Shown: positions 29,732-33,080 of the stretch, piece after piece
Layout: each line of letters starts with the position of its first letter
How positions within the stretch are numbered: position 1 is the first letter of the stretch
Assembly: GCA_017614465.1 (NCBI GenBank)
Contig: JAGABW010000015.1
Location: 1 to 33,080 of the forward strand
Length of the DNA stretch: 33,080 nt
Direction: 5' to 3'
Source of the DNA: Bacteroidaceae bacterium
GTDB taxonomy: Bacteria > Bacteroidota > Bacteroidia > Bacteroidales > Bacteroidaceae
Notes under the pieces: generated by a model
Databases searched by the model: none
What the model was told of the DNA's origin: nothing
The model's input: the letters and a program-made list of their open reading frames with translations, nothing else
Made by a program: the position numbers and the translations under genes

Positions 29732-30871
29732 TTATTTTATTCCCTTCCTTCTATTACACTCCCTACATAACATCTGACAATTATCAACAACTGTACGACC
29801 ACCTTCACGCCACGGAGTAATGTGGTCGCCTTCCATGAATTCGAAGTCATACTCTTTACCACAATGAGGACAAATATGGTTCTGCTTCTCCCACACTGCC
29901 AATTTGATATCATCTGGGAAAGCACGAAGATCCAGATAATGTTCATCACCTGTCAACACATATGGAATGATGCCTGACTGCTTCTGTATTTCGCTGTCGC
30001 GCATCAAAATAGAAATCTTTTTCCCCATATCCACTGTGTTAAGAGTCTCACTACCATATTTATCATAAAGCAGTGCCCAATCCAGCCCCTTCATGATTTT
30101 CTTGAACTTCTTCATGTCAAAGTTGGTAATGGCCCAGTTCAATACCGTTTGAAAGTAAGACCACAAATTATTTGCATTGGGGTCGTGCTGATGGGCTGCC
30201 ATATAACCAACTACAGTTTGTCGATGGCCATTTCGTGTTTCGTGGTTGGCTATCCATTCTAAGGCCACCTTTAGAAAGTCCTGACGGATAGGCGTCCCAT
30301 TAACGAGGTCTTTACCTAAACGAGCTGCCCCGCTATTGCTCTTAGAGAAATGCCGCTTGGCATCCGAGACGAAAGGCCCCGCATAAATTGCATTATTAAT
30401 TTCCTGATCATTCAATGGTTTTCCTGCTATATTAATGGTTTTAAACCACTCCAACTTCTCAGAAGCCTCTCCCTCACAAACATAGATAGTAAGCGGATAA
30501 TTGAGTATTCGCTTCTGGACATCCTCTGGCTGATTGAAAAAGTTCTTAAATTCAAACGAAAATTTACCTGCCACATATTCACAAAGCGAGAGAGTACGCT
30601 GCTGTCCGTCCATTACCTCATAGGGACATTCCGCATCCTCACTACGTTTCACCCAATACATAACATTCAGCGGATAGCCTTGCAATACGGTATGTATTAC
30701 TGCCTGTTGTTCCTTTTCATTATAGATAAATTCACGTTGATATGGAGGACGGATATCCAGCAGACCATCATAGCCACGAACACCTTGTTCGTCGTTATTT
30801 ACATAACCTTTGGTAATGTCACCAACTGTTACTTCAATTTGTTTTATAGTCATCATCTTTGCTATATTCAT
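29732..30871 (-). CDS. DUF262 protein with C-terminal HNH nuclease domain
   Basis: This 379-residue protein starts with a DUF262 (GmrS-like, ParB-related) domain: RPPYQREFIY (41-50), the nucleotide-site motif MDGQQRTLSL (87-96), and FKTINIAGKPLNDQE. The middle is helical. Residues 334-379 form an HNH nuclease: CPHC (334-337), GDHITPW with His350, DNCQ with Asn364, and CREC (369-372), with the zinc-binding and catalytic positions all present. Known DUF262 proteins with nuclease domains include GmrSD-type restriction enzymes for modified DNA. Its ATG overlaps the stop of the methyltransferase gene by 4 nt (ATGA). It is most likely the nuclease of a two-gene restriction or defence unit; the target is unknown. 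Confidence 0.85.
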   Translation of the reverse strand: MNIAKMMTIKQIEVTVGDITKGYVNNDEQGVRGYDGLLDIRPPYQREFIYNEKEQQAVIHTVLQGYPLNVMYWVKRSEDAECPYEVMDGQQRTLSLCEYVAGKFSFEFKNFFNQPEDVQKRILNYPLTIYVCEGEASEKLEWFKTINIAGKPLNDQEINNAIYAGPFVSDAKRHFSKSNSGAARLGKDLVNGTPIRQDFLKVALEWIANHETRNGHRQTVVGYMAAHQHDPNANNLWSYFQTVLNWAITNFDMKKFKKIMKGLDWALLYDKYGSETLNTVDMGKKISILMRDSEIQKQSGIIPYVLTGDEHYLDLRAFPDDIKLAVWEKQNHICPHCGKEYDFEFMEGDHITPWREGGRTVVDNCQMLCRECNRRKGIK

Positions 30872-31932
30872 AGTTTCTCTGGTATTTTGCGAATTAATAA
30901 TCTATGATATCTCTTTTGACATAGTATTCCTTTGTACATTTTCTGTCTAGATTTGTACTCTTTAAACTTGGGCTTTTTTAATAAAACACACAATCTAATA
31001 CATGGTTCACAACAATCTAATATTTCAAATTGTTTGGGATTAAAATAATTAAGAAAGGTAATCGGTACCCCCATTACACCATCATAATCACATGGTATTG
31101 AAAATGTATCTGAGACCTCTATTGCATTATAATCCTCATAACATGGATACTCTTCTTCTGAGAAATGACAAACTAAATCCAACAAGTCATATCGCTTTGG
31201 TATTTCCATATTTGTAAACCATGTAACACCAGAGACTCTAATCATTCCCTTACGATGATCGTTTGCCGATGCTGTATCTTCATATGGAGAGAAAAAATGA
31301 GTCGCACCTCCCTTAAAGCCATAACCGAGCCATATTTTGTTATCCTTAATTAACGGGAATACTTCTTTATAAGTAATTGCATTTTGATGCCCAATTATCA
31401 AAAATTTCTTGTCATATTTTACTAACTGAGCCACATATTCTCTGAACAACGAGAATGGAGGATTTGTCACAACGATATCTGCCTGCTTTAATAGTTCCAT
31501 GCACTCAGGATCCCGGAAATCTCCCGTCTTCAATATAGAACAAACGTTTTTATCGTTCTTCAGCAAATATTGAACATCAGCAAGATCAACAGCCCCATCA
31601 CCATTAAGGTCACTTACTTCCGTAATCTCAACCTTATAGGCAATCTTCTTTGGCTCATCCGTAAAATCGCCAAAATCAATCTTTAACTCATCGCCTTGTA
31701 CTGGCGAACCATTATAGCAAGTACAAATCAACTTCTTTAATCCTAATTGATTAAAGCGAAGGGCAAAATATTTAAAGAAATTACTTTCGTAAGGGTCGTC
31801 ACAATTGCATAATACCACCTTACCACGAAAGTGAGGCCAATAATGTTGTAATTCCCTCTCAATGTCAGTCAATTGAGTATAGAATTCATCTTTCTTCGCA
31901 ATTTTAGCTGCATTTAAATTTTTGTTAGCCAT
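30868..31932 (-). CDS. EcoRI-family adenine-specific DNA methyltransferase
   Basis: This 354-residue protein resembles M.EcoRI-type N6-adenine methyltransferases: N-terminal AAKIAKKDEFYTQLTDIE, a SAM-binding region around KVVLCNCDDPYESNFFKYF (38-56), the catalytic motif IV TNPPFSLF (156-163), LIIGHQNAITYKEVFP, and the target-site segment GVTWFTNMEIPKR. I start it at ATG 31932 (MANKNLNAAK); an in-frame TTG 39 nt upstream is less likely. Residues 108-119 form a complete EF-hand/dockerin-type loop. It is coupled to the DUF262-HNH gene by a 4-nt overlap and has a long structured leader. It probably protects host DNA from the partner nuclease, or marks DNA for it. Confidence 0.85.
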   Translation of the reverse strand: MANKNLNAAKIAKKDEFYTQLTDIERELQHYWPHFRGKVVLCNCDDPYESNFFKYFALRFNQLGLKKLICTCYNGSPVQGDELKIDFGDFTDEPKKIAYKVEITEVSDLNGDGAVDLADVQYLLKNDKNVCSILKTGDFRDPECMELLKQADIVVTNPPFSLFREYVAQLVKYDKKFLIIGHQNAITYKEVFPLIKDNKIWLGYGFKGGATHFFSPYEDTASANDHRKGMIRVSGVTWFTNMEIPKRYDLLDLVCHFSEEEYPCYEDYNAIEVSDTFSIPCDYDGVMGVPITFLNYFNPKQFEILDCCEPCIRLCVLLKKPKFKEYKSRQKMYKGILCQKRYHRLLIRKIPEKL

Positions 31933-32010
31933 ATTGGATTGATAGTTAGGTTTATACGCATCAACTATCAATCACGCCGAGACGCAAAAAGAAGCGCGAT
32001 GCATCTCATT

Positions 32011-32191
32011 GCGTTCAGCAAGAGGCGAAGCCTAGGATACTTGGAACCTCTGTATATGAACAAGAATGCACCACGCTATGCGTGTGCATCGCTATATTCA
32101 TATAACAGAGGCCAACATGGGCTCACCTGTCACGTATTATTCCGTGCTTTTTATTCCAATTAAAGTTTCCTAGGCTTACTTGGCTGAACGC
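32011..32191 (-). ncRNA. Nested inverted-repeat element, candidate structured RNA or dispersed repeat
   Basis: Four helices nest inside one another: 32011-32022 with 32179-32191 (12 bp, one bulge), 32028-32037 with 32168-32177 (10 bp perfect), 32047-32060 with 32097-32111 (14 bp, one bulge), and 32066-32076 with 32080-32089 (10 bp, one bulge, 3-nt loop). About 56 nt (32112-32167) remain unpaired on one side. The minus strand would be transcribed from the box at 32244-32251 into the methyltransferase gene. It could be a regulatory leader, a free small RNA, or a MITE-like repeat carried in many copies; sequence alone cannot decide. Strand is inferred from the promoter. Confidence 0.55.
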
Positions 32192-32243
32192 GAAATAATA
32201 GCGAATGCTTTATGTTTATTCGGATTTCTCCCCGAACTATTGG

Positions 32244-32251
32244 CAAAGATA
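32244..32251 (-). promoter_or_regulatory. -7 promoter box (TATCTTTG) of the methyltransferase-nuclease unit
   Basis: On the minus strand TATCTTTG matches TAnnTTTG exactly and is the same octamer as at the nrdD promoter. Transcription would begin near 32237, giving a leader of about 305 nt that includes the nested repeats. No TTTG is seen at -33. Confidence 0.5.
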
Positions 32252-32351
32252 CACAATTATTTGTGAATAATGTGTTTTCTTTAAAAAAAACTAATCAAGA
32301 ATATATTTTATATTACTGATATATATGATTTATTGATTATCACTAATAGAA

Positions 32352-33080
32352 TCATCTCATATCAATACCTTTTTCCAAAAAATCTGACAACAGTATTGCC
32401 TTTTCAAATGGCGAGTGAGTTAATTCACTATCTGTCAACTCGTTTCTTCCACATATAGCAATACAAGGTACTTGCTTTTCCTTTGCTCTGCATGCAATGC
32501 CATATGGTGCTTTTCCCATAAGTGTCTGGCGATCAAGACATCCTTCACCTGTAATAACCAAATCTGCAGAATCAAGTAATGTGTCAAAGTGTTGCCATTT
32601 CAACATGAGATCAATGCCCGAACAAATTTCCACATTGCGCATAGACAATAATGCAGCACCTACTCCACCTGCAGCACCTGCACCTGGTATCTCAATTATC
32701 GGTTTTCCGCTGATATCCTCAAGATAACGTCCGTAATCACGATTTCTGTTTTCAAGAGCCTCAAGCATATCGTCTGATGCACCTTTTTGACGTGCAAAGA
32801 CATATGTTGCACCGTTAGGTCCGCACAATGGATTTTTCACATCCGAAGCGATAACAAAACGGCATTCATCCAGTACATCTGTGTCTTTCAATGCATCAAG
32901 CATCCCTTTTCCACAATCATTCGTTGCTGAGCCACCAAGTCCGATGATAAAATCCCGACATCCATGGTTGATTGCATGAAGTATTAACTGCCCTGTTCCG
33001 TACGTAGTGGCGTTCAATGGATTACGTTCATTGACAGGAACCAACAGCAAGCCCGATGCCTGAGCCATCTCAATAACAGC
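32352..33080 (-). CDS. Glycerate kinase, 5' part outside the window
   Basis: This enzyme phosphorylates D-glycerate. The visible 242 residues are the C-terminal two thirds; coding continues in frame to the window edge (four more codons before the Met at 33068, reading AVIEMAQASG), and roughly 130 residues are missing. Motifs: EMAQASGL, NPLNATTYGTGQLI, FIIGLGGSATNDCGKGML, VIASDVKNPLCGPNGA, PGAGAAGGVGAALL and VITGEGCLDRQTLMGKAP, all characteristic of the GlxK/GarK-type glycerate kinase family. The product (2- or 3-phosphoglycerate) cannot be decided here. No neighbour on this side suggests a pathway. Confidence 0.92.
   Translation of the reverse strand, partial: AVIEMAQASGLLLVPVNERNPLNATTYGTGQLILHAINHGCRDFIIGLGGSATNDCGKGMLDALKDTDVLDECRFVIASDVKNPLCGPNGATYVFARQKGASDDMLEALENRNRDYGRYLEDISGKPIIEIPGAGAAGGVGAALLSMRNVEICSGIDLMLKWQHFDTLLDSADLVITGEGCLDRQTLMGKAPYGIACRAKEKQVPCIAICGRNELTDSELTHSPFEKAILLSDFLEKGIDMR

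Follow-up and report, generated by a model that had tools for sequence, protein, structure and literature searches.

A conserved, pseudoknotted RNA leader with a probable cis-regulatory, switch-like role upstream of restriction-modification and envelope genes in Bacteroidales

We analysed a 33,080-nucleotide stretch of DNA from a gut bacterium of the family Bacteroidaceae (contig JAGABW010000015.1; hereafter the window). Near its right end, a DNA adenine methyltransferase gene and a nuclease gene follow an element of about 310 nt on the minus strand that runs from a −7 promoter box (32251) to the methyltransferase ATG (31932). PADLOC labels the two genes MTase_II and REase_II, in keeping with an earlier suggestion that they form a probable defence unit. 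The listed open reading frame of the methyltransferase starts further upstream, at TTG 31971. From the promoter box towards the genes, the locus consists of the following parts, with the basis of each in brackets.

32244–32251, minus strand: −7 promoter box TATCTTTG, which we take to be of the Bacteroidota type (sequence)
32218–32238, minus strand: 5' hairpin of the type GTTCGG-GGAGAAAT-CCGAAT (sequence)
32192–32208, minus strand: conserved 5' core GCATTCGCTATTATTTC (sequence)
32192–32200 and 32135–32143, minus strand: T helix, in which TATTATTTC is able to pair with GGAATAATA (covariation count)
32183–32191, minus strand: 5' strand of helix P1, GCGTTCAGC (covariation count)
32169–32175, minus strand: kissing-loop strand K5', GCCTAGG (covariation count)
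32047–32113, minus strand: variable hairpin c, with apical arms c5' (32080–32087) and c3' (32062–32076) (fold)
32021–32051, minus strand: hairpin b (AGAGG..CCTCT), with kissing strand K3' (32030–32036) in its loop (covariation count)
32011–32019, minus strand: 3' strand of helix P1, GCTGAACGC (covariation count)
31983–32012, minus strand: segment d, able to form its own hairpin or to pair with c3', the proposed switch partner (covariation, energies)
31937–31973, minus strand: hairpin e, GATTGATAGT..ACTATCAATC, directly 5' of the start codon (covariation count, ATG spacing)
30868–31932, minus strand: DNA adenine methyltransferase (Pfam EcoRI_methylase; PADLOC MTase_II), ATG at 31930–31932
29732–30871, minus strand: GmrSD_N (DUF262) plus HNH nuclease (Pfam; PADLOC REase_II)

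A preliminary description of this DNA had placed a set of nested helices behind an exact −7 box and had proposed folding both strands as a check. The box is present as described, and the helices are borne out by the minus strand of 32001–32260, which folds at −94.6 kcal/mol. Shuffled versions average −61.67 (z −7.07), and none of 200 folds as well; the plus strand of the same region gives a z of −5.70. Two points of that description needed revision. It had ended the element at 32011, for a length of roughly 180 nt, and the conserved segments d and e carry it on to the start codon at 31932. It had also read two CCTAGG-centred stretches as near-direct repeats; these are the two strands of a kissing-loop helix, 32169–32175 with 32030–32036, which resemble direct repeats because CCTAGG is self-complementary.

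To count covariation, we took sequences that had come from a search of the blastn type, from a sequence-only model or from a sequence pattern, chose 113 of these elements for P1 and e, reduced them to 90 representatives at 88% identity, aligned these with MAFFT, and scored each helix by script, with 500 shuffles of the 3' partner and slid controls for comparison. Shuffling leaves the relatedness of the sequences in place, so the shuffle counts are not probabilities; P1 complementarity and a match to e were used in choosing the sequences, so the counts for these two helices are not independent. P1 is paired in 100% of 807 cells, with double changes in six of its nine pairs and none of the 500 shuffles reaching that value. 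The kissing helix K is paired in 99.0% of 630 cells (shuffle mean 80.6%; 0/500 reach), with double changes in all seven pairs, and the duplex between c3' and d in 91.7% of 881 cells (shuffle mean 82.0%; 0/500), with double changes in nine of ten. For hairpin b the figure is 98.6% of 360 cells, again reached by none of 500 shuffles, but the best slid control attains 93.8%. The two inner pairs of hairpin a hold in 98.2% of 165 cells (0/500), with two double-change cells, and the apical pairing of c5' with c3' in 77.3% and 78.9% of cells, reached by one and none of 500 shuffles. Covariation is weak in the T helix and in hairpin e because both are nearly invariant: T is paired in 94.8% of 806 cells (shuffle mean 94.0%; 0/500; five double-change cells) and e in 93.4% of 763 (shuffle mean 92.5%; 1/500; double changes in three of ten pairs). 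The basal stem of d shows little of it, at 86.6% of 322 cells (shuffle mean 85.6%; 12/500). The compensatory changes that the preliminary description had proposed looking for are thus found in K, b and c3':d, and we conclude that the leader is a real, conserved, pseudoknotted RNA.

Several further pairings were tried and set aside. The outer stem of hairpin a is unsupported (75.0% paired against 75.2% in shuffles), as is a pairing of the e loop with a 5' GCAT (55.9% of 370 cells); pairing of the e loop with the 5' end, compared over 135 elements, gave 5.79 for cognate against 5.45 for non-cognate combinations. The core CTATT and the GATAG of e show no clear covariation, with nine sequences in the extended test.

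We then surveyed the distribution of the element. A search with 260 nt of the locus found matches in 14 of 101 genomes. A sequence-only model, built on 81 positions from the 5' part, was run on genomes of increasing taxonomic breadth: 92 of 399 matched in the family, 20 of 393 in the order and 3 of 296 in the phylum. All four counts include the source genome. The two phylum-level matches outside the source genome (L297 and L298) were unconfirmed by a full-length profile. At the order level, 20 of the 29 matches outside the source genome were taken, and all 20 were confirmed, with E-values from 1.3e-17 to 3.1e-56 and alignments running from profile positions 1–3 to 234–278; at the family level, 100 places were taken from the model matches. 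A pattern scan of titled genomes added at least 118 stretches, and the titles among the pattern matches listed name Bacteroidales taxa or looser groups (Bacteroidia, Bacteroidetes, 'bacterium'), many of those listed coming from ruminant gut samples. Among the carriers of the leader is a cultured relative, Marseilla massiliensis An824 (L214). Two pattern matches, L170 and L174, were dropped, the element being absent from the sequence shown. In the source genome, the search for further copies called for earlier gave three matches, which amount to the window and one further locus: this second locus is split over contigs C87 and C24, whose matches overlap by 196 nt at 99% and are therefore counted as one. 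The overlap at these contig ends has two differences, both within the leader core, and they are perhaps strain variation or assembly error.

The 224 elements collected form 205 clusters at 97%, of which 197 were kept, 30 of these having fewer than eight of the nine P1 pairs; the other eight clusters have no P1 assignment, some being too short and some missed by the regular expressions. L006, L018 and L126 were missed in this way, and the element is visible in them by eye. Energies were computed for 162 elements and reassortment was scored for 145.

In 147 of 185 elements, a TAnnTTTG box is present no more than 130 nt upstream of the core, compared with 10 of 185 in a control stretch. A GGGAGAAAT motif, with one change allowed, occurs within 45 nt upstream of the core in 91 of the 185; of the elements bearing it, 84 have a TAnnTTTG box, and in all 84 the box ends 30–44 nt before the core. 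At the other end, hairpin e was assigned, like element type, by regular expression; it is present in 138 elements, its 3' arm could be located in 123, and in every one of these the first ATG follows within 0–11 nt. Some automatic gene starts are wrong: in L068 the start was called inside the e loop, and in L051 the gene was lost. Position, −7 box, covariation and start-codon spacing agree with the proposal that the element is a structured leader.

The position of the 5' hairpin is taken by other sequences in many relatives, as if the 5' module of the leader were exchangeable. In L055, L095, L107 and L123, which lack the GGGAGAAAT hairpin, other sequences fill the interval from the −7 box to the core, and in some of them several small hairpins can be made out by eye.

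These results bear on the suggestion that the element is a mobile or dispersed repeat with no function for the gene behind it. At least two matches occur in 27 of the 92 matching family genomes, and six copies (L011, L065, L076, L108, L134 and L135) appear truncated: they seem to have lost all but its 5' part, and some of them sit right in front of unrelated genes. Both observations are what such a repeat would produce; the first also accords with the cis-acting leader preferred below. Copies placed without regard to genes would not keep an ATG 0–11 nt behind hairpin e or a −7 box in 147 of 185 cases, and long-range covariation likewise speaks against a repeat. Searches of phage and plasmid records (blastn at 1e-5) and of viral contigs (one exact pattern) returned no match. 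We regard this explanation as very hard to credit.

Within the leader, one strand has two conserved partners. When extended through TTCTT, c3' is able to form a long duplex with d, and its pairing with c5' is also kept, although more weakly than that with d. Averaged over crudely cut segments of 162 elements, the computed energy is −30.9 kcal/mol for the c3':d duplex, −19.5 for c by itself and −11.7 for d by itself; the competing structures are thus similar in mean energy, as a strand-exchange switch needs. The cognate c3':d duplex is more stable than non-cognate ones in 1471 of 1934 comparisons. One strand with two kept pairings is an attenuator-like arrangement, and a conserved core joined to a gene-start region is a riboswitch-like one. 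No intrinsic terminator was called in the window, d included, and the longest T run in d varies from 2 to 7, being 2–3 in 50 of 162 elements. A leader peptide from the ATG in c, the only ATG covered by this test, was rejected: 34 of 167 elements lack that ATG, and in the rest the frame runs from fewer than 5 to at least 60 codons, with no constant length.

Judged from comparative sequence, the RNA leader is most likely cis-regulatory and switch-like. It would be co-transcribed with the gene behind. In its upstream domain, P1 closes a pseudoknotted fold in which the kissing loop ties hairpins a and b together, with covariation seen throughout except in the outer stem of a. Downstream, c3' may pair with c5' or with d, and d may also fold on itself. 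We infer that folding of the upstream domain, set by a ligand or factor, could tip the balance between these partners: pairing of c3' with d would let the gene be transcribed or translated, and closing of c and folding of d, together with formation of e at the start codon, would lower expression, or the signs may be reversed.

Riboswitches and other attenuation leaders combine a structured conserved domain with alternative pairings and a gene start downstream. The leader shares all three features; it differs in that it matches no Rfam family at gathering score and no terminator is called in the window. With Rfam 15 at the gathering threshold, no family falls on the element in the window or in sets of 18 and 20 loci (one tRNA lies elsewhere in L075), and a permissive search of 31900–32400 yields three matches with E-values of 7.1–8.5, all below the gathering score. 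Candidate structured RNAs of Bacteroidetes have been reported (Weinberg 2010, PMC2864571; Fremin and Bhatt 2021, PMC8040213), and as far as the main texts go these resemble the leader in coming from the same phylum and, for some, in lying directly upstream of genes. Neither 'restriction' nor 'methyltransferase' (or 'DNA methyl') appears anywhere in the two main texts; the comparison extends to main texts, so the leader may equal a candidate listed in a supplement. Full-text literature searches together with these two papers, within a scope of main texts from largely open-access journals, gave no description of the RNA.

We next examined the genes behind the leader. The preliminary description had tied the element to the methyltransferase-nuclease pair of the window; it is not specific to that pair, the same RNA preceding unrelated methyltransferases, other defence-like genes and envelope genes. 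A called first gene is present behind 178 of 197 elements, and classes were assigned by hand from Pfam matches of representatives, sequence clusters and methyltransferase motifs, the latter with the meaning we take them to have. On this assignment, 118 of the 178 encode DNA methyltransferases: 94 are EcoRI-type and form one cluster, and the remainder have N6_Mtase, N6_N4_Mtase, C5, MmeI or D12 domains or methyltransferase motifs alone. Ten encode other defence-like proteins or nucleases (HSDR_N, DUF4268/PDC-S11, HKD plus Snf2, putAbiC, and RNase_T-type exonucleases, which we infer to be defence-like), 27 encode envelope or surface proteins (MBOAT, Acyl_transf_3, Sulfatase, glycosyltransferases, BspA-type LRR, Mfa_like, CsgG and others), and a further 23 were given no class. 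The second gene belongs to one cluster in 82 elements (median 374 aa); in an earlier census, second genes of this kind clustered with the window nuclease (cluster of 43). Among the 10 of 20 order-level first genes scanned with Pfam, three are EcoRI-type, one each is D12, N6_N4_Mtase, MmeI and ResIII-HNH, two are Sulfatase and one has no Pfam match.

Of the elements with at least eight P1 pairs and e, 103 of 123 precede methyltransferases; of the 44 with at least eight P1 pairs and no e, 14 precede envelope genes, 13 genes without a class, 6 methyltransferases and 3 other defence-like genes, and 8 have no gene. Conversely, among 30 EcoRI-type methyltransferase loci in the family, which are mostly the best matches of the search, the leader is present at 18 and absent at 12, two of the latter having too little upstream DNA to judge (L277, 177 nt; L284, about 373 nt).

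Comparison of nearest leaders and of leader pairs indicates that the leader reassorts between genes. Of the 58 leaders of non-EcoRI-type genes, 57 have their nearest neighbour among the other leaders in front of a gene from another cluster; 27 of these 58 could not have agreed, being the sole members of their gene cluster, so that at least 30 of the 31 informative leaders disagree. Among leaders of EcoRI-type genes the count is 16 of 87. Nine pairs of similar leaders were compared. Similarity stops within 12 nt of both called starts in six of them; in two further pairs the partners' called starts differ, and the block ends between 15 nt before and 38 nt after them; in the one pair lacking e, similarity ends after d, 64–129 nt before the ATG. 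L106 and L107 have leaders that are 83% alike and share a downstream block (843 nt, 70%), and carry different genes in between, a member of the DUF4268 cluster in L106 and a methyltransferase plus a nuclease-cluster gene in L107.

Reassortment, blocks that stop at or near the ATG, and the exchange between L106 and L107 would also follow if the leader were constitutive, stabilising the mRNA, insulating it or aiding ribosome loading, with its sameness permitting recombinational exchange of genes and no sensing involved. Two alternative partners for one strand exceed what a stabiliser needs, however, and compensatory change keeps the structure, whereas a recombination anchor would need sequence identity. 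We consider a constitutive leader rather unlikely.

The preliminary description had also allowed for an independent small RNA. In this reading the element would act in trans, or serve as the RNA partner of defence proteins in the manner of the IscB omega RNA, retrons or toxin-antitoxin RNAs. It could account for the 19 of 197 elements without a called open reading frame behind them, a number that is an upper bound, six of the 19 having at most 170 nt of downstream DNA and L051 having an EcoRI-type gene in the earlier census. Seven elements (L110, L112, L124, L133, L137, L143 and L145) have a full P1 and thousands of bases with no close called open reading frame, so that for these few an independent small RNA is conceivable, and the single compared pair without e loses similarity before the ATG, as a trans-acting RNA might. 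Against it stand the constant distance from e to the first ATG in all 123 elements and the fact that the same RNA precedes proteins as unlike as methyltransferases, sulfatase-fold enzymes and BspA-type LRR proteins; a dedicated protein partner is disfavoured because the proteins behind the leader have nothing in common. Like the IscB omega RNA, or HEARO, the leader is a large RNA immediately upstream of an operon that includes an HNH nuclease, but a methyltransferase lies directly behind it and no IscB is adjacent: the window nuclease matches the IscB and Cas9d models over residues 322–377 only, at 28–29 bits against cut-offs of 175 and 375. The leader differs from retron RNA in that no reverse-transcriptase family was found among the scanned first genes (some first and few second genes were scanned). 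We hold a trans-acting role to be quite improbable.

A cis-acting, attenuator- or riboswitch-like mRNA leader of a new kind, moving between genes as a module, is the reading we consider reasonably probable. Against it weigh the lack of a called terminator in the window, the short T runs of d in 50 of 162 elements, the slight covariation in the basal stem of d, the modest c5':c3' pairing, the pairings set aside above and the 12 EcoRI-type loci at which the leader is absent. A portable leader of this sort before restriction-modification, other defence-like and envelope-modifying genes could let several of them answer one signal. More tentatively, and as less likely than not, we suggest that it represents a new riboswitch-like class of Bacteroidales through which a single signal, sensed by RNA, governs both immunity genes and the envelope genes that face phages, and that it is passed between such genes as a control module. 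Discussion of how restriction-modification genes are controlled mostly centres on proteins. If the suggestion is true, a large RNA leader would give restriction-modification, other defence-like and envelope genes a shared layer of control over how these bacteria meet phages, its ligand or trigger would be directly searchable, and the leader would mark a modular means of carrying expression control from one gene to another, unrelated one.

Individual loci vary in what stands behind the leader. The methyltransferase-nuclease pair follows it directly in L099; in L095, a DUF4268 gene (PADLOC PDC-S11) lies between the leader and the pair, and in L080 two EcoRI-type methyltransferase genes stand in tandem behind one leader. 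The clusters of L063 (770 aa) and L075 (829 aa) consist of large proteins without a Pfam or NCBIfam match; they carry NPPF or NPPY, that of L063 also DRCAGTG, and they are likely single-chain modification enzymes.
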